Source of the DNA: Actinomycetes bacterium
Lineage (GTDB): Bacteria > Actinomycetota > Acidimicrobiia > Acidimicrobiales > Poriferisodalaceae
Reading direction: 5' to 3'
NCBI GenBank assembly: GCA_024228575.1
Contig: JAAETH010000442.1
Span: 1-60,161 of the forward strand
Length of the DNA stretch: 60,161 nt
A program made the translations under genes and the position numbers. The notes beneath the pieces were generated by a model, which worked only from the letters and a program-made list of their open reading frames with translations, was not told where the DNA came from and did not search any database. Below are positions 8,184-60,161 of this stretch, one piece after another (the stretch's first letter is position 1; the number at the start of each line of letters is the position of its first letter).

Positions 8184-9602
8184 GTGAGCACGTCGAGCAC
8201 GCCCTCCCCTCTCGACGATGAGCTCTGGTTCCGCGCCGCCACCACCTTGCGTACCCAGGTCTCCGAAGCTGTCTGGCATTCGACCTTCGCTGACGTGAGA
8301 CCCTTACCGTCTCCCGAAGACGAACTCGTCCTCGCAGTGACCAGCACCATCACTCGTGAACGGATCGAGGATCGCTACCGGCCCATGGTCGAGGCGGCTG
8401 TTCGCGATGCCGGCACCGATTGCCCTGTGCGCATCGTGGTTGACGAGCCACGGGTTCTCGATCCCCCCGAACTCGACCTCGTCGACACCACCGAAGTCTC
8501 ACCGGCGTCGTCGCTTTCTCGCGATCCTGCTCCCCCGCCGACCCCTGGTCGCCATCAGCAGCAACCATCACAGCTCGGTGACAATCTGAGCGAGCGATAT
8601 ACCTTCGAAACGTTCGTCACCGGAACATCGAACCGATTCGCCCACGCTGCTGCGCTAGCCGTGGCCGAGACGCCGGGCCGCAGCTACAACCCCCTGTTCA
8701 TCTACGGCGGTGCAGGGCTCGGAAAGACCCACCTTCTTCAAGCGATAGTGCACTACATAGGGCGCAACTATCCCGGCTTCCGAGTCAGGTACGTCTCGAC
8801 AGAATCGTTCATGAACGAGTTCATCGAGGCCATCCGTACCACCGGGCAAGCCTCCTTCAAGCGCCGCTACCGCGACGTCGACGTGCTCCTCGTCGACGAC
8901 ATCCAGTTCATGGAAGGCAAGGAAGGACTCCAGGAGGAGTTTTTCCACACCTTCAACAGCCTTCACGGCGCAGGACGACAGGTCGTCTTGTCGTCCGACC
9001 GTCCACCGAGATCGATCGCCACCCTCGAAGACCGCCTCCGAAGCCGCTTCGAGTGGGGCCTCATCACCGACATCCAGCCGCCCGACCTCGAGACCCGCCT
9101 CGCAATCCTTCGCAAGAAGACCGAGGTGGAGGGAAGCCGCGTGCCAGATGACGTACTCGAGTTCATAGCGACAAACATCAGGAACAACATCCGCGAACTC
9201 GAGGGAGCACTCATCCGGGTCGGAGCTTTTGCGTCGCTCACCGACGAGCCACTCGACATAGATCTGGCCACAAAGGTTCTCGCCGATATCGTCACCGATG
9301 GCGAACCGAGGCCGATAACGATCGGACGAATCATCGACGCAACCGTCTCCATGTTCGGGTTCGGCCATGAGGAACTTCTCGGAAAACGTCGCCACCGTGC
9401 CCTGGTCACCGCTCGACAGATCAGTATGTACGTATGTCGCGAGCTGACCGACCTGAGCTACCCGTCGATTGCCCGCGAGTTCGGCAACCGCGACCACACA
9501 ACGGTCATCCACGCTGTCGACAAGATCTCGAAACAGATGGCGGAGCGCCGCCAGATCTACGATCAGGTGACCGCCCTCATACAGGACATCAAGGCTCCAT
9601 GA
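8184..9602 (+). CDS. dnaA: chromosomal replication initiator DnaA
   Basis: A 472-residue AAA+ initiator. Domain I covers about residues 1-90, a proline-rich linker follows, then the AAA+ core with Walker A GGAGLGKT (175-182) and Walker [10 protein letters not shown]. Domain IV carries the box-binding signature [14 protein letters not shown]. The start is GTG with AAGGAGGG upstream. It binds boxes on both sides of itself and in oriC. Confidence 0.98.
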
Positions 9603-20016: not shown

Positions 20017-20124
20017 TCGGGAACTTCCTCCTTCTTTTCCTCCTCTGTGTCAGCACAAAAGGTAAAGAGAACACCTGCGCGTGCCGATGGTTCTCTGGCG
20101 GGTCGAACATGACCCGAGTCATAC

Positions 20125-20142
20125 CAACAGAGGGAGCTGTTG
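20125..20142 (+). promoter_or_regulatory. hairpin presenting the Shine-Dalgarno sequence of the sigma-factor gene
   Basis: CAACAG (20125-20130) and CTGTTG (20137-20142) form a perfect 6-bp stem around the loop AGGGAG. The loop holds both the ribosome binding site and a GGA triplet, the minimal CsrA recognition core. CsrA control is inferred. Confidence 0.45.
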
Positions 20143-20146
20143 CTGA

Positions 20147-21010
20147 ATGGGCGAGGACAAGGATGTCGTGGCCCGGATAGAAGCGAACTTGCCGCTTGTG
20201 AAACACGTTGTGTTTCAGGTGGCCGTTCACTTCCCCCGGCATGTCGAACGCGAGGAACTTGCTCGAGCCGGCGCACTAGGTCTCGTCGAAGCGTCCCAAC
20301 GCTACGACGAATCACGAGGTGTGCCGTTCGAACGATTTGCAGCACAACGAATCAGAGGTGCAATCCTCGATTCGGTGCGGGCGGCCGATTGGGCGCCACG
20401 TTCGGTACGAAATCTGGCCCGCAAGCTGGAACAGGCCGAGCAGCGAATGGCCAACCGACTAGGTCGACTTCCGTCGGCTGACGAGTTGGCCGAAGAGCTG
20501 GACATGGAACGAGAACGACTCGATCGACTTCAAGATCGCGTTCACCGTTCCGTAGTGTTGGCTCTGGATCACTACGTTGCGCCAGATGATGACGAAGAGC
20601 TGACACTGGTCGATGTGCTTTCCGACCCGGTGACACTCGAACCCGACGCAGACGTCGAACTGAGGGAGATGCGCGGCTATCTACGTGACGCCGTGCACCT
20701 CCTACCGGAACGCCATCGCGCCGTGATCGTGGGTTACTTCCTGGAAGGTGCAACATCATTGGAGCTGGCTCGGTATCTCGGCGTGACCGAGAGTCGAATC
20801 AGCCAGCTTCGGTCAGAAGCGCTGATCATGTTGCGAGAGGGCATCGAGGCCCAGTACGACGGAACCGTGCAGTCACCCGATGAGGTCAAGGGCCGAGTCG
20901 CACGACGCAAGGCGAAGTACGCAACTGCGATCAACGAGGCGAGTAGCTGGAAGGGTCGCGTTGTCGACCTTCAAAGCCACGAGAACCTCGACGTAGACGT
21001 CAGAAGCTGA
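20147..21010 (+). CDS. FliA/WhiG-family RNA polymerase sigma factor (first copy)
   Basis: A 287-residue sigma-28-type factor. Region 2 (FPRHVEREELARAGALGLVEASQRYD, then GVPFERFAAQRIRGAILDSVR) and region 4 (LPERHRAVIVGYFLEGATSLELARYLGVTESRISQLRSEAL) are complete. It has a C-terminal extension of about 50 residues that is absent from typical FliA. FliA and WhiG recognise TAAA-N15-GCCGATAA-like promoters. With the second factor at 45247-46146 it is a candidate for flagellar gene control. Confidence 0.92.
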   Translation: MGEDKDVVARIEANLPLVKHVVFQVAVHFPRHVEREELARAGALGLVEASQRYDESRGVPFERFAAQRIRGAILDSVRAADWAPRSVRNLARKLEQAEQRMANRLGRLPSADELAEELDMERERLDRLQDRVHRSVVLALDHYVAPDDDEELTLVDVLSDPVTLEPDADVELREMRGYLRDAVHLLPERHRAVIVGYFLEGATSLELARYLGVTESRISQLRSEALIMLREGIEAQYDGTVQSPDEVKGRVARRKAKYATAINEASSWKGRVVDLQSHENLDVDVRS

Positions 21011-31795: not shown

Positions 31796-31926
31796 TAGGT
31801 AGGCCTTGATCGACCACGGAAAGTGCCTGATCACAAGTTCTGTTTGCGTCGAACTGCTTATGCGCTCAATCGCAGCGTCGACGGAACTTGGGAACATGGA
31901 CGTTCTTGTTAACACGGAGGTGACAG

Positions 31927-32172
31927 ATGATTCTCGTGCATCGGCTTAAGGGTGAGCCCATGTATATAAACGCCGATCTGATCGAGTTCATCGAGGCCAC
32001 ACCCGACACGGTCATCACACTTGCTGATGGCCGAAAGATGGTGGTGGCCGAAGCTCCCCACGAGATTGTCGAGCGTTCCAAGATGTTCCGGGCATCGGTG
32101 ATTGCCGTCACCGAGCAGCTACGGCAGGAGTCGGTGCCGACACTCAGTCTGCTGCGCTCAGAAGAGGAGTGA
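31927..32172 (+). CDS. flbD: FlbD-family flagellar protein
   Basis: An 81-residue protein matching the FlbD family (IxxxRLxGxxxxxNxDLIExIExxPDTxIxLxxGxK). Family function is unclear, but it nearly always sits between flgE and motA, as here. The 131 bases upstream carry no clear promoter. Confidence 0.9.
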   Translation: MILVHRLKGEPMYINADLIEFIEATPDTVITLADGRKMVVAEAPHEIVERSKMFRASVIAVTEQLRQESVPTLSLLRSEEE

Positions 32173-32178
32173 TCCCAC

Positions 32179-32964
32179 ATGGATCCTCTTTCTCTGATCG
32201 GCCTCGGCCTCGTCTTCGTCGCCATCATCATCTCAACGGTGATGGACGGCAACTCGTTCGCTCCGTTGATCGGTCCGTCGTCGTTTGTGCTGGTTCTCTT
32301 CGGGTCGCTCGGAGCGGCGCTCTCGGGATACCGCATGGGCGATGCCAAACGCTTGCCAAAGGCGTTCATCGTCGCTTACACAGGAGCACCCGAAGACCCT
32401 GACCAACTCGTCACTCAGCTGATGAACTACGCCGAAGCGGCGAGGAGAGAGGGCATCTTGGCCCTCGAGGAAGGTCTCGACGATCTCGAGAACAAGTTCT
32501 TGCGTTCGGGTCTGCAGATGGTGGTTGACGGTCTCGAAGGCGAAGAGGTTCGACAGGTCATGGAGGCCGAGGTCATCGCCATGGAGACCCGGCACGATTC
32601 GCTGATCGGCCTCATGAAGAAGATCGTCGAGTACTGCCCGACCCTGGGCATGATCGGCACCGTCATCGGCCTCATCAACATCCTGGGCAACCTGGCCGAT
32701 CCTTCGGCCCTCGGCACCGGTATGGCGCTGGCCTTGTTGACCACGTTGTATGGAGTGTTCTTTGCCAACGTCATCTTTGGCCCCATCGCCACCAAGCTCA
32801 CCGTGTTGAACGAGCTCGAGCTCGCTGCGAAGGAGCTGACGGTCGAGGGAATCCTCGCCATTCGCGAGGGTGCAACACCGAGGCATCTGGTCGAGCGACT
32901 CGAGGCCTATCTCGAGCCAGAGCTTCGCGTCGGTTCGAAGGCCCGGCTCGAGAAGTCCGCCTAG
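32179..32964 (+). CDS. motA: flagellar motor stator protein MotA
   Basis: A 261-residue four-helix stator subunit. The LNYAEAARREGILALE-like cytoplasmic loop, the TM3 segment CPTLGMIGTVIGLI and the TM4 ALLTTLYGVFFANVIFGPIA are present. GAGGAG lies upstream. Confidence 0.95.
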   Translation: MDPLSLIGLGLVFVAIIISTVMDGNSFAPLIGPSSFVLVLFGSLGAALSGYRMGDAKRLPKAFIVAYTGAPEDPDQLVTQLMNYAEAARREGILALEEGLDDLENKFLRSGLQMVVDGLEGEEVRQVMEAEVIAMETRHDSLIGLMKKIVEYCPTLGMIGTVIGLINILGNLADPSALGTGMALALLTTLYGVFFANVIFGPIATKLTVLNELELAAKELTVEGILAIREGATPRHLVERLEAYLEPELRVGSKARLEKSA

Positions 32965-32973
32965 GAGACTGTC

Positions 32974-33924
32974 GTGGCCAAGCGCCAGAAGAAGACAGAA
33001 GAGGGTGGCGATGGGTTCATGACGACCTACGCCGACATGGTGACCCTGCTCATGGCGTTTTTTGTCATGTTGTTCGCCATGTCGTCGGTGGACGATACGA
33101 AGTTCCTGACGATGCTGAAGGGCCTCGAGGAGGCGTTCGGCAACTCGGCGTATCAGCAGTTCATTCTCCAGGGTGGCCCGTCGGTGATCGGAGCCAACCA
33201 GCCAGATGGTGCCGACGTTCCTTCCGTCGGTGGTGCAATCACCGTGGTCGCGATCGACAGGGATCTCTCCGAACTCGTCGAGGCTGTCAGTGGAGCCGAG
33301 ACCTCCGTCGAGAGCCCATCCGATGGGCAGAATCCCGACGAAGTAGACGACCCACACGTTCTCGATCTGTCCGAGTTGGCTGAGGTCGAGGCAGCGATAA
33401 TCGACGCCACCACAAGGCTCGGCATTCAGGATCTGGTCACCACCCAGATCACTCCCGATGGCCTTACCATCGTGTTGTCGACAGATGACATCTTGTTTCA
33501 GAGCGGCAGTGCCGACCTCGCGGACGGCCTCGGTCGAGAGTTCGTCGGTGTGGTCGCCGGCGTTCTCCAGGGCTTCGACAACCCGATCAGGGTGCACGGT
33601 CACACCGATGATGTGCCGCTCGGTGACTCTGGATACTCGAACTGGGACCTGTCAGCGGCTCGCGCGATTGCCGTGAACGACCTGTTCATCGACGAGTTCG
33701 AGATCACACCCGCTCGCCTCGAGGTGATCGGCCATGCCGACACCCGGCCGCTCGTGCCCAACGATTCCGACGAGAATCGGTCCAAGAACAGGCGCGTCGA
33801 GATCGTCGTCTCGGTCGATGCGCTCGAACAAGCAGCGCTGCGAGTCGACGAGGCGACACAACCTGGTGAAGATCCCGTCGTTGGAATCGACCCCGTCACC
33901 CTCGCCGAGGAGGTTCTCGGCTGA
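32974..33924 (+). CDS. motB: flagellar motor stator protein MotB
   Basis: A 316-residue peptidoglycan-anchored stator. The N-terminal helix TTYADMVTLLMAFFVMLF contains the ion-binding Asp21. A long linker leads to an OmpA-like domain (HTDDVPLGDSGYSNWDLSAARA, then GHADTRP and NRRVEIVV). GTG start with AGGAG. The Asp environment alone does not settle proton versus sodium use. Confidence 0.95.
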   Translation: MAKRQKKTEEGGDGFMTTYADMVTLLMAFFVMLFAMSSVDDTKFLTMLKGLEEAFGNSAYQQFILQGGPSVIGANQPDGADVPSVGGAITVVAIDRDLSELVEAVSGAETSVESPSDGQNPDEVDDPHVLDLSELAEVEAAIIDATTRLGIQDLVTTQITPDGLTIVLSTDDILFQSGSADLADGLGREFVGVVAGVLQGFDNPIRVHGHTDDVPLGDSGYSNWDLSAARAIAVNDLFIDEFEITPARLEVIGHADTRPLVPNDSDENRSKNRRVEIVVSVDALEQAALRVDEATQPGEDPVVGIDPVTLAEEVLG

Positions 33925-47531: not shown

Positions 47532-47768
47532 TCACCCTTTGGGACGTGGAGCCTTGCGATTCAACAAGGGAGACGCGATATCGGCAGAACGAGCGGCCGC
47601 CGCGTTCTCTTCAACCACCTGACGGTAGACCTCTTCGCGGTGAACCGGCACCGAGCGGGGAGCGTCGATGCCAACCCTGACCTGGTCGCCGCGGATGTCG
47701 ATGACGGTCACCGTGATCGAGTGGCCGATGATGACCGCCTCGCCCTTTCGGCGCGAAAGAACGAGCAT
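47532..47768 (-). CDS. csrA: carbon storage regulator CsrA
   Basis: A 78-residue translational regulator (MLVLSRRKGEAVIIGHSITVTVIDIRGDQVRVGIDAPRSVPVHREEVY); the Leu4 and Arg44-type RNA-binding residues are kept. The start overlaps the fliW stop. CsrA represses flagellin translation by binding GGA hairpins near the start codon. Confidence 0.97.
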   Translation of the reverse strand: MLVLSRRKGEAVIIGHSITVTVIDIRGDQVRVGIDAPRSVPVHREEVYRQVVEENAAAARSADIASPLLNRKAPRPKG

Positions 47769-48223
47769 CAGGCGTCCGCCAGATCGACTCGAGCTCTGAC
47801 CGGATAGTCCGAATCGGCGAGGACGACCTGACGGGCTTTGAGGGTGTCGAGGTTGACGACGAAGGGGCCGAGCAGGTTCACGAACACACAACCTTCCTCA
47901 CCGTCGAGGGTCACCGGATTGAACAGGGTGACGTCGGATTCGCTTGTGGCTCCGATGCGTTCGAGTTCGGACTCGGGAACGTCGGGTGCGTAGTCGGGGA
48001 ACAGAATCCACGGCTGGGTCACGACCAGTGATAGCTCTCCGTCGAGCGAACGAAGCAGCTGGAACAATGCGTCCTCCGGCGCGTCGGGTGCAACCTGGGT
48101 GAGAACGAACTGGGTAGTAGCCGGCAATCCGATGATGCCGTCTTCGAAGTTCAGAATCGTTGGATCGTCGGTGTTCACGATGTAGCCATTGTCTCGCGAA
48201 AGTTGGGTCGATGTGGTGATCAA
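47768..48223 (-). CDS. fliW: flagellar assembly factor FliW
   Basis: A 151-residue CsrA antagonist (FEDGIIGLPATTQFVL, NPVTLDGEEGCVFVNLLGPFVVN, SDYPVRARVDL). TTG start overlaps the flgL stop as TTGA. FliW binds either flagellin or CsrA, linking flagellin export to its translation. Confidence 0.95.
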   Translation of the reverse strand: MITTSTQLSRDNGYIVNTDDPTILNFEDGIIGLPATTQFVLTQVAPDAPEDALFQLLRSLDGELSLVVTQPWILFPDYAPDVPESELERIGATSESDVTLFNPVTLDGEEGCVFVNLLGPFVVNLDTLKARQVVLADSDYPVRARVDLADA

Positions 48224-55442: not shown

Positions 55443-57335
55443 TCAGCCACTTGTCGTCGGCGGCAGCACACCGCTCAGATAGTTGCCCTGGGCCTGGAGC
55501 CTGGCCAGTGCGGTTTCCATGGCGGTGAATTCGCGACGCAGTTGGGTTTCGCGCAGGCTCATGCGCTCTTCCATCGTGGCGATCGAGTCATCGATGCTAC
55601 TGATGCGGGTGTCCCACTCAGATCGGGCTCTGGAGATCTCGCCGTCGATCCCTTCGAAGCTGTCGAGCCAGGCATCGAGACGTCCACCGAGACCCTGCGA
55701 GATGGTCACGCTGCCAGCGGTGTAGTTGCCGCCACCGACGTCACCTGAGGTGGCGGTGACCTGGACGGAAAGACCCTCGGAGTTCCCGGCGGTGCCGGTG
55801 AGAGTCCTGCCGCTGCCTGAGGCTGCTTGACCACCGATGGTGCCGGTGACGTCAGCACCGCTCGAAATGCCGTTCAGGCCGAATTCGCCGTCGTTCCAGA
55901 TCGCTAGCTCGTGGACCGAACCGTAGGCATCCGGAACGCTGACATGAAGGGCATCTCCACCCGTGACCGCAACACTGCCGACCAGCACGTCGGTCAGGCC
56001 GTAGGAGGCCAGGTCCGAACTGATCGAATCGATGGCCTGCAGGAGGGTTGCGTTCTTCGAGACGGTGACGAGAGCATTGATCCCGCCGTACTGGATGTTG
56101 AACTCCTCGAGGTTCGCCGGCGATTCGAACATCGAACCCTCTAGCTCGGGAATACTCGCAGCCGTGTCGACGACGACCTCGTAGGTGCCCGGCTGGGTGG
56201 CCGAGGTCGCGCTCACGTAGCCGACCTGGCCGCTGTCCGACGAGCCGCCTCGGGCGAACAACGAGATGACGCTGTCGAAGTCGGTCGTCAGTGCGTCGGT
56301 GAGCTTGGACTCGTCGATGGAGTACGAGCCGTCGCGCTCGAACTCGATACCGATGTCGATGATTGTGTTGAACGAGCCGCTGTTGGCGACGACCTCGCTC
56401 ATCGAGTTGCGCAGCGAGATGACCATGTCGCGTGCCGTGCGATCGTTCGTCAGTGGCGAAGCGGTGTCGGACTCTGCGTTGTAGGAGGTCTGATTCTCGA
56501 GCTCGGAGAGAAGTGAGTTGGTGGCGTTCACCATCGATGTGATGGCTGTGGCCGCAGACTCGGTGTCCCTGACGATAGCGACGGTCGCGGGAGAGGCCGT
56601 GATCTGCTTGGCCTCGATCTTCACGCCCTCGATGACGTCTTCGAAGGTGTTGCTCGAGCGGGTTATCTCGAGACCGGTCACGGGGTCACCGAGGCGGATC
56701 GTGGCATCTGCACCCGCTGCGACCACGTCACTCGATGCGAAGCCACCGAGGTTGCTGGTGACCGTGAACTGCGAATCCGAACCGCTGTCGGCCGATGTCA
56801 GCAGCAGGCGATAGTCGTTGAGGCCTACTTCGATGACCGAGGCGGTCAGTCCGCCGTTTGCGCTGTTGATCTGCTGGGCGAGCCCCTCGAGTGTGGTGCT
56901 CGAGTCGGCTGCGACATCGACAGAACCGGTCGATGTCGTGATCGAGAAATCCCCGGTTCCCACGAGTGCGTCCGAGGAGGTGAAGCCCGATCCGGTCGAA
57001 ACCTGATGGTTCGACGCAAGCTGGGTGACGTTGATGCTCAGCGATGCTGTTGCGGGAGTCCCCGTGACGGAGACGCTCACAGCATCTGTGTTCGAGCTGC
57101 TGGCTTTGACGAAATTCGCGAACTCACTTGTCGACTGGAGATCGTCGACCGTGTTGCGCAGCTCCGAGACCTTGGTGTTGATGGCAGTCCAGGAGTTGAG
57201 CTTCTGGTCGTACTCGTTGCGCCGGATCTGCATGCGGGTGATCGGAGCGCGTTCGACCGACATCAGGGTGTCGACCAGGGTGTTCGTGTCGAGTCCTGAT
57301 GCTATTCCACTGAACGATACCGTTGGTGAAACCAT
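55443..57335 (-). CDS. fliD: flagellar filament cap protein FliD
   Basis: A 630-residue cap protein. N-terminal FSGIASGLDTNTLVDTLM and the C-terminal coiled segment (RSEWDTRISSIDDSIATMEERM) are diagnostic. The variable middle is larger than usual for the family. Confidence 0.95.
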   Translation of the reverse strand: MVSPTVSFSGIASGLDTNTLVDTLMSVERAPITRMQIRRNEYDQKLNSWTAINTKVSELRNTVDDLQSTSEFANFVKASSSNTDAVSVSVTGTPATASLSINVTQLASNHQVSTGSGFTSSDALVGTGDFSITTSTGSVDVAADSSTTLEGLAQQINSANGGLTASVIEVGLNDYRLLLTSADSGSDSQFTVTSNLGGFASSDVVAAGADATIRLGDPVTGLEITRSSNTFEDVIEGVKIEAKQITASPATVAIVRDTESAATAITSMVNATNSLLSELENQTSYNAESDTASPLTNDRTARDMVISLRNSMSEVVANSGSFNTIIDIGIEFERDGSYSIDESKLTDALTTDFDSVISLFARGGSSDSGQVGYVSATSATQPGTYEVVVDTAASIPELEGSMFESPANLEEFNIQYGGINALVTVSKNATLLQAIDSISSDLASYGLTDVLVGSVAVTGGDALHVSVPDAYGSVHELAIWNDGEFGLNGISSGADVTGTIGGQAASGSGRTLTGTAGNSEGLSVQVTATSGDVGGGNYTAGSVTISQGLGGRLDAWLDSFEGIDGEISRARSEWDTRISSIDDSIATMEERMSLRETQLRREFTAMETALARLQAQGNYLSGVLPPTTSG

Positions 57336-57470
57336 TGCCGTGTTGGTCTTCTACTAGAGGTGCTGTTCCTGTCGGCACGTCTTCGGGAGGGCTTGAAGCC
57401 TTTTTGTCTTCGTCACACAAGCGTCATCACTCTGAGTGATATCTCGCTGCGGGTCGTCTTGTTGAGTGAA

Positions 57471-58295
57471 CTACTGGCTCAGCAGCGAGGCCACTGTTTG
57501 TGGCATCACGTTCGCCTGGGCAAGCATCGCCGTACCCGCCTGAGACAGGACCTGGCTGCTCGTCAGCGAGACCATCTCGAGGGCCATGTCGGTGTCGCGA
57601 ATCCGACTGTCGGATGCGGTCAGGTTCTCCTGTGCGACCAGGAGGTTGTCGATGATGTGTTCGAGTCGCCCGGTGGCGGCACCGAGATCGCTTCGCATCG
57701 ACGAGACCTCGTCGATGACCCCATCGATGATGGAGATTGCCGCGTCAGGGTCGACAGAGAGGTCGATCGTTGCGAGGCCACCTCCAGCGAGCACTGCGGG
57801 ATCGAGCCTCAGGTCACGGTTGATGCTGAGCTCATCACCGGGCGACGAACCAATTCCGATGTGGAACACCAGCGGATCGACAGTCAGGTCACCGAACACC
57901 GGCACGCCGCTGAATGTTGTTCGCTGTTCGATCGCCGTGATCTCCTCGCGCAGGGCATCGAGCTCGACCTGCTGGGCCACCCCGTCTGTGGAGGCGGTGC
58001 TGGCTGCGTCGATGGCCAGGGTGCGCATGCGCTGAAGAAGGGCGTGGACCTCGCCGAGAGCTCCCTCGGTGGTCTGCAGGAAGCTGACCGCGTCCTGAGC
58101 GTTGATGGTCGCCTGTTTGGTGCCGCTGATGGCCGAGCGCAGACCCTCAGATCTCACCAGGCCGGCTGCGTCATCGGCTGCGCGATTGATCTTCTCGCCC
58201 GAAGACAGGCGTTCGAGTGAACGGTTGAGATCGATATTGGTCGTCGTCAGGTTTCGGTAGGCGTTGAAAGCCGACGTGTTCTGGTTGATCCGCAT
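57471..58295 (-). CDS. fliC1: flagellin 1
   Basis: A 274-residue short flagellin lacking surface D2/D3 domains. N-terminal MRINQNTSAFNAYRNLTTTN, LSSGEKINRAADDAAGL and C-terminal [33 protein letters not shown] are conserved. ATG 58295 has GGGAGGG upstream. It is the last of three flagellin genes on this strand. Confidence 0.96.
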   Translation of the reverse strand: MRINQNTSAFNAYRNLTTTNIDLNRSLERLSSGEKINRAADDAAGLVRSEGLRSAISGTKQATINAQDAVSFLQTTEGALGEVHALLQRMRTLAIDAASTASTDGVAQQVELDALREEITAIEQRTTFSGVPVFGDLTVDPLVFHIGIGSSPGDELSINRDLRLDPAVLAGGGLATIDLSVDPDAAISIIDGVIDEVSSMRSDLGAATGRLEHIIDNLLVAQENLTASDSRIRDTDMALEMVSLTSSQVLSQAGTAMLAQANVMPQTVASLLSQ

Positions 58296-58424
58296 CCGGG
58301 TTCCCTCCCTCGATTCGGCCCGACACCGTCGTGGTGTTCGGTGCATTCCGAATTCGAAGGGCCGGTCGACCCGATTGCAGCGTGCTTAAGCAGTGTCGTT
58401 TTGGCCCTCGTGCTGAGCCTTCGG

Positions 58425-58802
58425 CTATGAAGGAGCGCCCACGGCTTGCTCCACGCCTTCGTACCATGCTTCGCGAAGCTCGCCGATGATCTGGCGGACG
58501 GTCGCCAGACCATCGCCCGACTTCTCGACATTGGCCTTCACCAGGATTTCGTAGCAATAGTCGTACAAGTCACGCAGGTTGGTGGCGATTTCGCCTCCCG
58601 CCTCATGATTGAGCGAGAATCGGAGCTCGTCGAGGATCAACTGTCCCCTCACCAGTTCGGCGTGTGCCGAGCCGGGATCATCTCCCGTCTCGAATACCGC
58701 CACCGACCTGTCAAGGCCGAGTAACAGCCGGTCATACAGCATCGTGATCAGGCGAGCCGGGCTCGCCGTTGCCACTGACTGTCGTACGTACTCAGCGCGC
58801 AC
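58425..58802 (-). CDS. fliS: flagellin chaperone FliS
   Basis: A 125-residue four-helix chaperone (YVRQSVATASPARLITMLYDRLLLGLDRS, then ELRFSLNHEAGGEIATNLRDLYDYCYEILVKANVEK). GTG start. It lies between two flagellin genes, its clients. Confidence 0.94.
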   Translation of the reverse strand: MRAEYVRQSVATASPARLITMLYDRLLLGLDRSVAVFETGDDPGSAHAELVRGQLILDELRFSLNHEAGGEIATNLRDLYDYCYEILVKANVEKSGDGLATVRQIIGELREAWYEGVEQAVGAPS

Positions 58803-58833
58803 TCTGCCTCGCTTGTCCGATCATTGCTTCGCC

Positions 58834-58852
58834 TCTGCACCAACGGTGCAGA
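58834..58852. other. hairpin between fliC2 and fliS
   Basis: TCTGCACC, AAC, GGTGCAGA form an 8-bp stem with a 3-base loop in the 199-bp gap. No T-tract follows, so terminator function is uncertain. The rest of the gap shows nothing clear. Confidence 0.4.
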
Positions 58853-59001
58853 AGCGTCTGAAACTGTCTCCTGCGGTTCAGATTCCCAGGCCAGTCGAAA
58901 CTGCCTCTGGGTGTCTGGCGCTGGACCCGGTTGAGCCGCTGGTCTCCCGTCGGCGGGCTCCGCCCCGAATCAAGGGCATCACCCGTGCGAGCCCACTTCG
59001 C

Positions 59002-59823
59002 CTAGCCGAGCAGCGACAGGATTGACTGTGGCTGGGCATTGGCTTGGGCGAGCATCGACGTGCCGGCCTGGACCATGATCTGGTGTCGTGTGAACGAGAC
59101 CATCTCGAGGGCCATGTCGGCGTCGCGAATACGACTCTCCGAAGCAGACAGATTCTCCTGTGCGACCTGGAGGTTCGCAATGGTGTGTTCCATCCGGTTC
59201 TGGGTTGCACCGAGTTGGGACCTGACCTGCGACACGTTGCCGATGGCGGTGTCGAGGGCGGTGATCGCCGCGTCAGCGCCGGTTGTGACGTCGATCGTGG
59301 AGATATCGGCCCCGAAGACGGCATTTGATGCCATCGTCAGGTCGTTAGTGATCTGCATCCGGTTGATAGCGCCGGCGTTTGGGCCCACGTGGAACGTCAG
59401 AGCGGTCACACTGTAGTCCTGGAAGACCTGGTTGCCGGCGAACGTCGAGCGGGCACCGATTGCGTCGAGCTCTGCAAGGAGTTCGTCGATCTCAGCCTGC
59501 TGAGGTACGCCGTCCGAGGTGGCCGTGTTGGCCGCATCGATCGCCAGGGTGCGCATGCGTTGAAGCATGGCATGGACTTCCGACAGTGCTCCTTCAGCGT
59601 TCTGCACGAAGCTGATGCCGTCCTGAGCGTTCTGGATCGCCTGGCGGCTGCCATTGATCTCAGAGCGAAGTCGTTCGGACTTGACCAGTCCGGCAGCATC
59701 GTCTGCGGCACGATTGATCCGGAAGCCTGACGACAACTTCTCGAGGGTCTTGCCCATCAAGATGTTGGTGCCGGACAGGTTCCGGTAGGCGTTGAACGCC
59801 GCTATGTTCTGGTTGATTCTCAA
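59002..59823 (-). CDS. fliC2: flagellin 2
   Basis: A 273-residue short flagellin, very close in form to flagellin 1 ([58 protein letters not shown]). A GTG two codons farther up would lie 3 bases after GGAGG, too close. TTG 59823 lies 6 bases after it and gives MRINQN, the same beginning as flagellin 1, so it is chosen. Confidence 0.95.
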   Translation of the reverse strand: MRINQNIAAFNAYRNLSGTNILMGKTLEKLSSGFRINRAADDAAGLVKSERLRSEINGSRQAIQNAQDGISFVQNAEGALSEVHAMLQRMRTLAIDAANTATSDGVPQQAEIDELLAELDAIGARSTFAGNQVFQDYSVTALTFHVGPNAGAINRMQITNDLTMASNAVFGADISTIDVTTGADAAITALDTAIGNVSQVRSQLGATQNRMEHTIANLQVAQENLSASESRIRDADMALEMVSFTRHQIMVQAGTSMLAQANAQPQSILSLLG

Positions 59824-59825
59824 CA

Positions 59826-59839
59826 CACACCTCCGTGTG
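59826..59839 (-). promoter_or_regulatory. candidate CsrA-binding hairpin over the fliC2 ribosome binding site
   Basis: On the minus strand, CACAC and GTGTG form a stem around the loop GGAG, so that ACACGGAGGT matches the CsrA consensus ACANGGANGT. The GGAGG is also the Shine-Dalgarno sequence. csrA and fliW are encoded 12 kb away. Confidence 0.7.
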
Positions 59840-59979
59840 ACGTGTTTGAGCCGATTCCGTCCGGCTCCGAGATGGTTCGTCGACAGAGGTCGGGGCTGGG
59901 CAAGTGTTTGTGCCAGACAATTCTGAAAAACCTGTTATCCGTCTCTCTGGGGAGCCCATTGGGATCGTCGCGAAAACGC

Positions 59980-60011
59980 CTGAGGGCGCCGCCCGTAGGC
60001 GGCGCCCTCAG
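59980..60011 (-). terminator. strong hairpin terminator after flagellin 3
   Basis: CTGAGGGCGCCGCC and its exact complement (14 bp) flank the loop CGTA. In the minus direction the stem is followed by GCGTTTTCGC. A second inverted repeat, CTCAGAAGA-G-TCTTCTGAG (60007-60025), shares its first bases with this stem. Confidence 0.75.
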
Positions 60012-60031
60012 AAGAGTCTTCTGAGGCTACG

Positions 60032-60161
60032 TCAGAGAAGCGACAGGATTGACTGGTGCGAAGCGTTCGCCTGAGCGAGCATCGAGGTACCGGCTTGGGC
60101 CATGATCTGGTGGCGTGTGAACGACACCATTTCCATTGCCATGTCGGTATCACGGATGCGG
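60032..60161 (-). CDS. flagellin 3 (3' end, partial)
   Basis: The last 42 codons and the stop of a third flagellin gene; the window ends inside it. The visible C-terminus ([32 protein letters not shown], ending SILSLL) is nearly identical to flagellin 2. Confidence 0.93.

Follow-up and report, generated by a model that had tools for sequence, protein, structure and literature searches.

The leader of the flagellin gene fliC2, located in the 60,161-nt stretch of actinobacterial DNA analysed here (the window), raises the question of whether flagellin synthesis in Actinobacteria is controlled at the RNA level by CsrA and FliW. In Bacillus subtilis, CsrA binds the hag mRNA at two sites, one of them over the Shine-Dalgarno (SD) sequence, and FliW releases CsrA (PMC7652899, PMC6529632). 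A 2020 review assigns to B. subtilis CsrA one major function, the control of hag, plus ahrC (PMC7430163). In Campylobacter jejuni, the 45-nt flaA leader contains two ANGGA stem-loops, the second of which lies on the ribosome binding site (RBS), and CsrA binding, a footprint and repression have been reported for this leader (PMC4894983). On the basis of gene presence, it has been proposed that Actinobacteria may use FliW to act on CsrA (PMC4682653). In the actinobacterium Actinosynnema pretiosum, a swrD-motA-ompA-fliL operon has been described, and fliW and csrA are adjacent in the flagellar table of the same account, the accessible portions of which do not discuss CsrA targets (PMC9019756). 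CsrA and FliW appear only as search queries in the portions of PMC10746217 available to us, while csrA is named as a stress gene in PMC8602919. In the open-licence literature, we found no study of CsrA targets in Actinobacteria and no RNA target named.

An earlier note on this DNA had proposed that the fliC2 leader forms a CsrA-type hairpin with a 5-bp stem and a GGAG loop that masks the SD sequence. The 14 bases on which the proposal was based, CACACGGAGGTGTG, were found exactly at the claimed position, as the minus-strand reading of window positions 59826-59839, and the RBS, GGAGG, is located inside them, as claimed. The features of this region are as follows.

59002..59823, minus strand: flagellin gene fliC2, with Flagellin_N and Flagellin_C domains and a TTG start assigned by alignment
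59830..59834, minus strand: SD sequence GGAGG of fliC2, read from the sequence, 6 nt before the TTG at 59823
59828..59839, minus strand: BS2, the SD-overlapping CsrA-type site CAC-ACGGAG-GTG, with a hexaloop ANGGAN and a 3-bp stem, defined by the sequence and the conserved register

Alignment with relatives places the fliC2 start codon at the TTG 59823-59821 (protein N-terminus MRINQN), 6 nt downstream of GGAGG; the alternative start would be a GTG at 59826. The inner ten bases of the 14-mer, ACACGGAGGT, match (A/U)CANGGANG(U/A), which we take to be a form of the CsrA consensus. The earlier claim of an exact fit to the SELEX consensus holds for this form, whereas the published SELEX consensus reads RUACARGGAUGU.

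Taken alone, the motif proves nothing, as its occurrence in 60 kb is not beyond chance. The 10-base consensus has 15 matches in the window (7 on the plus strand and 8 on the minus strand), compared with approximately 6.2 per strand in shuffled sequences, and the exact form drawn in the earlier note (GGAG loop, 5-bp stem) occurs once, on the minus strand, compared with approximately 3.1 expected per strand. Motif matching alone was thus dropped as evidence, and a comparison of leaders was adopted because the motif counts were no rarer than chance. What does exceed chance is the location of the site on the SD sequence, together with its conservation. Two more hairpins of the ANGGAN type, whose stems are 6-7 pairs long, are located at window positions 9108 (minus strand) and 12303 (plus strand); chance alone would produce about one on each strand. 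A search of window positions 57000-60161 against Rfam 15 returned no match at gathering score and two weak sub-threshold matches to unrelated families; likewise, no Rfam 15 family reached the gathering score at 13 selected loci.

The predicted fold of the isolated 14-mer is the one drawn in the earlier note, at -5.4 kcal/mol; in longer stretches, the predicted fold at the SD site varies with the chosen ends. An 81-nt leader stretch folds no better than its shuffles (z -0.79), and its centroid keeps the SD site open; the predicted fold of a 42-nt stretch that includes BS2 and the upstream hairpin BS1, described below, has a z of -3.36. Because the fold shifts with the ends and the 81-nt centroid leaves the site open, the SD stem alone is not a firm mask. 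Of the proposal that a hairpin masks the SD sequence, the placement of the site on the SD stood; the masking would probably be exerted by bound CsrA and not by the weak stem.

The earlier note held that its reading would fall if the stem or the GGA were not kept in close relatives; both were checked, and the reading survived. Flagellin matches were obtained in six genomes of the same family, that of the window included. Three of the other family genomes encode close relatives of fliC2 (82-91% protein identity) with a readable leader. In G001, which belongs to the same genus, the 14 bases are identical to those of fliC2, while in G010 and G016, which belong to another genus, the site reads CACATGGAGGTGTG, with one loop base different. 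The sole flagellin with a readable leader in G008 is of another type (57% identical), and its site, CC-ATGGAG-GG, keeps the GGA with two stem pairs. A further genome of the family, G013, contains several flagellin-like genes of another type and has no CsrA, FliW or FlbD match.

For a broader comparison, flagellin genes were gathered from searches of relatives, of the class and of the phylum, together with one scan of named genomes and fetched stretches. With E thresholds of 1e-3, 1e-10 and 1e-15, flagellin matches were present in 10 of 61, 70 of 395 and 54 of 396 genomes, respectively; a few weak ones may be FlgL. The resulting 223 distinct leaders comprised 161 from Actinobacteria, 57 from Bacillota and other phyla, four from G013 and one, L297, that was discarded because it is not a flagellin start. 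After redundancy removal, 142 of the 161 actinobacterial leaders were retained (<80% identity, 80 nt or more available upstream), and 139 of these were used in the SD analyses, the other three having no recognisable SD. Leader L082 (identical to L127) is counted as actinobacterial; the flagellin tree and the control with 101 SDs described below predate its transfer from the other-phyla set.

The SD site was anchored on the GGA of the SD only, and pairing was ignored. Across the 139 leaders, the SD flanks pair in one register, that of a stem closing a hexaloop A-N-GGA-N. Pair 1 is formed in 88% of the leaders (shuffled 78, maximum 83), pair 2 in 88% (shuffled 44, maximum 55) and pair 3 in 56% (shuffled 36, maximum 47), according to 500 shuffles that, like the tree null below, ignore relatedness; pairs 4-7 are close to chance. 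Because these nulls ignore relatedness, slid registers and the SDs of other genes were added as controls. The hexaloop register is paired in 0.77 of cells, while registers slid by 1-3 have means of 0.30-0.63. The 5-bp stem with a GGAG tetraloop of the earlier note corresponds to the +2 slide, which pairs in 0.34 of cells, and had to be replaced as the conserved register by the 3-bp stem closing the hexaloop ACGGAG. As to the other genes, an SD stem of at least three pairs is present in 66 of the 139 flagellin leaders, and thus missing in 73, compared with 5 of 101 SDs that belong to other genes of the window and the loci; additionally, an A is located two bases before the SD GGA in 94% of the flagellin leaders and in 34% of the other genes. 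Clear cases of the SD site are GAGATC-AAGGAG-GATCTC (L223), CCAATC-ACGGAG-GATTGG (L133), GTCAAC-AAGGAG-GTTGAC (L112) and ATCATC-AAGGAG-GATGAT (L216). These characteristics agree with those described for selected CsrA sites, which are mostly hexaloops with the flanking AC/GU paired and at most four contiguous pairs (PMC7652899).

The second pair of the SD stem is realised as A-U, U-A, C-G, G-C, G-U and U-G. On a flagellin tree built from the N-termini of 138 leaders' genes (37-110 residues each), 29 double changes preserving pair 2 were inferred (null mean 6.0, maximum 16), with approximately 15 breaks (null mean 27.5). For pair 3, there were 13 double changes (null 5.1, maximum 13) and 23 breaks, and compensatory change supports this pair only moderately. 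The covariation of the stem that the earlier note suggested seeking in a leader alignment is thus present across the phylum. A plain SD whose flanks pair by chance, since CAAGGAGG tends to pair C with G, would account for pair 1, which base composition largely explains (0.88 compared with 0.78 in shuffles), and for a 10-base consensus that is common in the window. Nevertheless, pairs 2 and 3 are above every shuffle, the stem is found on only 5 of the 101 SDs of other genes, and a chance pairing would not predict the 29 double changes that preserve pair 2. We regard this explanation of the SD site as very improbable, close to excluded.

Upstream of BS2, the fliC2 leader contains a second CsrA-type hairpin, BS1, which was not reported in the earlier note and is stronger than the SD hairpin.

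59848..59867, minus strand: BS1, the upstream CsrA-type hairpin GAGCCGG-ACGGAA-TCGGCTC, with 7 bp including a G-U closing pair
59877..59884, minus strand: GTCGACGA, a putative sigma28-type -10 element
59971..60011, minus strand: terminator-like sequence behind fliC3, a strong inverted repeat with TTTT next to it

The distance between BS1 and the SD site, from GGA to GGA, is 24 nt, and the median in relatives is 33 nt. We searched the zone 14-90 nt before the SD GGA with a strict rule (hexaloop ANGGAN, at least four pairs). A strict upstream hairpin was present in 70 of the 142 leaders and missing in 72, compared with a mean of 1.1 (maximum 4) after dinucleotide shuffling and with three leaders for the most successful of the remaining 63 trinucleotides in the loop. 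When pairing was ignored, the ANGGA nearest to the SD could be located in 115 of the 142 leaders, and its pairs 1-7 were formed in 86, 79, 78, 70, 68, 59 and 52% of them, compared with 37-61% after shuffling 114 of those 115 leaders. The stems are unrelated in sequence, as illustrated by GATCGC-ACGGAA-GCGATC (L008), GCCCGAC-ACGGAT-GTCGGGC (L082), GTAGC-AAGGAT-GCTAC (L048) and CCGCCGG-AAGGAA-CCGGCGG (L093). With a loose rule (loop of 4-9 nt, stem of at least five pairs), an upstream site was found in 92 of the 142 leaders (shuffled 21.3, maximum 29). Only under this rule, with its shuffled yield of 21.3 upstream sites, do 112 of the 142 leaders carry the SD site, the upstream site or both; 44 carry both.

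These hairpins could also act without CsrA, if weak stems held the RBS or shielded the 5′ end from nucleases and were opened by temperature or translation. Such a role is compatible with the folds in which the SD site is in a predicted stem, and with the few leaders in which the upstream hairpin is retained but its loop contains no GGA. However, a general stem would need no A-N-GGA-N loop, and the base before NGGA affects the presence of a stem of at least four pairs, which was found on 73 of 150 ANGGA sequences, compared with 2 of 81 CNGGA, 0 of 62 GNGGA and 0 of 25 TNGGA; moreover, none of the 63 other trinucleotides exceeded three leaders. We consequently judge a CsrA-free function of the hairpins to be quite unlikely, and CsrA recognition remains the preferred reading of both sites.

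An upstream hairpin is retained, but its loop contains no GGA, in L087, L193, L215, L239, L044 and the leader of fliC1 in the window (upstream of 58309), whose SD site is as follows.

58298..58309, minus strand: fliC1 SD site GGG-AGGGAA-CCC, accompanied by its own upstream hairpin without a loop GGA

L087, L193, L215, L239 and fliC1 perhaps represent genes that left part of CsrA control. In the same genome, the upstream site of fliC3 (L006) is good, whereas its SD NGGA is preceded by a C instead of an A. The leaders of the order-level relatives L168, L170-L172 and L176 have no strict upstream site, and their genomes have CsrA matches. In family f26, five genomes (G073, G264, G318, G408 and G410) have extra CsrA matches, some of them partial, with up to five per genome; the flagellin leaders of these relatives are without a strict upstream hairpin.

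With respect to the promoter, GTCGACGA and YCGAY are presumably sigma28-type elements. In relatives, YCGAY is enriched 5-15 nt upstream of BS1 (29 compared with approximately 4.9 in shuffles; 73 leaders), which is consistent with a sigma28-type promoter directly before the upstream hairpin. Given the position of the -10 element at 59877..59884, the fliC2 transcript start would adjoin BS1. Since the terminator-like repeat lies after fliC3, fliC2 is probably transcribed from a promoter of its own, with a short leader. Our pattern scan did not pick up this inverted repeat (59971..60011), and it returned no sigma70-type promoter before fliC2.

In line with the earlier note, both CsrA and FliW are encoded in the window.

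47532..47768, minus strand: csrA, 78 aa, with a C-terminal extension as in PDB chain 1t3o
47768..48223, minus strand: fliW, immediately preceding csrA, with a one-base overlap

The CsrA of the window aligns to PDB chain 1t3o, which we take to be B. subtilis CsrA, over residues 1-72 of 78, the C-terminal tail included. It also matches 5dmb chain D over 2-75, and the FliW of the window matches 5dmb chain A. FliW binds the extended C-terminus of CsrA (PMC7652899), and this extension is present in the CsrA of the window by alignment. Among the 126 genomes with a flagellin match, CsrA was found in 118 (70 of 77 and 48 of 49) and FliW in 117 (70 of 77 and 47 of 49). Since CsrA is nearly universal in flagellin-bearing genomes, its absence does not provide a clean control. 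The eight genomes without a CsrA match are G013, G176, G253, G271, G275, G327, G397 and G623; four of them (G253, G271, G327 and G397) are less than 90% complete, and G176 and G275 contain flagellin remnants with a stop. The four leaders of G013 include no strict hairpin and one hairpin by the loose rule, and its flagellins are possibly contaminant contigs. In G176, G275 and G327, broken or fragmentary flagellin matches coincide with no CsrA match, which suggests that motility may be in the process of being lost.

The fliC2 leader thus contains two sites with phylum-wide conservation, compensatory changes and A-N-GGA specificity, in a genome that encodes an extended CsrA and FliW. By analogy with C. 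jejuni flaA and B. subtilis hag, we infer where the fliC2 transcript starts, that CsrA binds and bridges the two sites and represses, and that flagellin, FliW and CsrA form a switch, as follows. The fliC2 mRNA would start with a short leader made up of two CsrA sites. A CsrA dimer would bind the strong upstream hairpin (59848-59867) and then bridge to the weaker SD site (59828-59839), where it would block the 30S subunit. During flagellin export, FliW would strip CsrA from the mRNA, while flagellin accumulating in the cell would sequester FliW, and CsrA would repress again. We assign a probability of approximately 0.86 to this reading, i.e., a fliC2 leader repressed by a bridging CsrA dimer and relieved by FliW. 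The CsrA-type control originally suggested for this leader is supported, after correction of the register and addition of the second hairpin.

The elements of a hag/flaA-type leader that were found for fliC2 are an ANGGAN hexaloop, overlap with the SD, a second site upstream, compensatory changes, and CsrA with FliW in the genome. Judged by its sequence, the leader appears to be a further member of this known class. As in C. jejuni flaA, the leader is presumably short and has two hairpins, each with ANGGA in its loop and one of them, the second, on the RBS; compensatory changes occur in relatives, CsrA and FliW are present, and other flagellar mRNAs of C. jejuni are CsrA-bound (PMC4894983). 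The two differ in phylum, and binding and repression, which are predicted for fliC2, have been demonstrated for flaA. The resemblance to B. subtilis hag comprises the two sites, one over the SD, the antagonist FliW and the adjoining fliW and csrA genes (PMC7652899, PMC6529632). The 57 leaders from Bacillota and other phyla, a set in which B. subtilis is not included, differ from the actinobacterial ones in that a regular upstream hexaloop hairpin is rare: the strict hairpin with at least four pairs was found in 2 of the 57, and the loose rule selected 8 of the 57, which is at the level of chance (shuffled 4.6, maximum 9). In E. coli glgC, a strong upstream hairpin also tethers CsrA, which bridges to the SD site; unlike fliC2, glgC is not flagellar, and in E. 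coli it is small RNAs, not FliW, that sequester CsrA (PMC7652899).

Additional CsrA-type sites in the window precede flbD/swrD and a sigma factor gene.

31889..31908, plus strand: flbD/swrD upstream hairpin TGGGAAC-ATGGAC-GTTCTTG, from a whole-window scan
31912..31921, plus strand: flbD/swrD SD site ACACGGAGGT, a consensus match with a 2-bp stem, from the same scan
31927..32172, plus strand: flbD/swrD, followed by motA (32179-32964) and motB (32974-33924)
20125..20142, plus strand: SD hairpin CAACAG-AGGGAG-CTGTTG, 6 bp, of the sigma factor gene at 20147-21010
20156..20167, plus strand: second site, GAC-AAGGAT-GTC, in the first codons of the sigma factor gene

Among non-redundant flbD leaders of flagellated Acidimicrobiia, 15 of 47 had a hexaloop stem of at least four pairs, compared with 0.34 after shuffling (maximum 3) and 1 for the best other trinucleotide; in the phylum-wide genome set, 9 of 30 flbD leaders had one, compared with 0.33 after shuffling (maximum 2). 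Both sets consist of fetched loci or stretches and not of all matches. The 47 leaders were obtained from 51 fetched ones after one with unread bases and three redundant ones were dropped. Several of these hairpins are located on the SD, such as ACAC-ATGGAG-GTGT (L338 and L339) and GCAC-ATGGAG-GTGC (L409). The flbD leader of the same-genus genome, L336, fails the strict rule, and 24 of the 47 and 20 of the 30 leaders are without a hexaloop stem of even three pairs. In C. jejuni, motA showed at least 5-fold CsrA enrichment in one of four table columns only (PMC4894983), in contrast with the many actinobacterial flbD-motA-motB leaders that carry sites.

At the sigma factor gene, stems of 5-7 and 3-4 pairs were present at the two places in all five family genomes searched, although the outermost pairs are variable and sometimes broken; at the second site, conservation of the encoded protein could be partly responsible. 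A phylum-wide distribution of the sigma factor sites was rejected, as they were found in none of seven orthologues outside the family (L361-L367) and in none of the 18 distant homologues listed, whose start codons were only roughly placed. A GCCGATGG element at 20083-20090 is a possible promoter of the sigma factor gene. The proposal that, in flagellated Actinobacteria, CsrA-FliW control extends beyond flagellin to a group of late flagellar transcripts is, in our estimation, evenly poised between true and false.

The occurrence of similar sites on the flbD-motAB and sigma factor transcripts also bears on the outcome of CsrA binding at fliC2. CsrA might activate or only stabilise the mRNA, or the leader might mainly serve as a sponge that titrates CsrA from other flagellar mRNAs, as would be in line with these additional sites and with the C. 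jejuni flaA leader, which is both repressed by CsrA and able to titrate it (PMC4894983). The conserved site on the SD itself, which fits the blocking of ribosomes, argues against these outcomes, and we consider them unlikely as the main role of the leader; a sponge role could nevertheless accompany the repression.

Flagellated Actinobacteria thus probably use the type of flagellin control that has been described in Bacillus and Campylobacter. The leaders described here supply the RNA half of the CsrA-FliW circuit in this phylum, with the exact bases that can be mutated and a usable register. They suggest that the C. jejuni flaA-type leader is widespread and that the regulon includes stator genes. 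If this is true, flagellin export would set, via FliW, both the supply of filament and the supply of the stators that power the motor.
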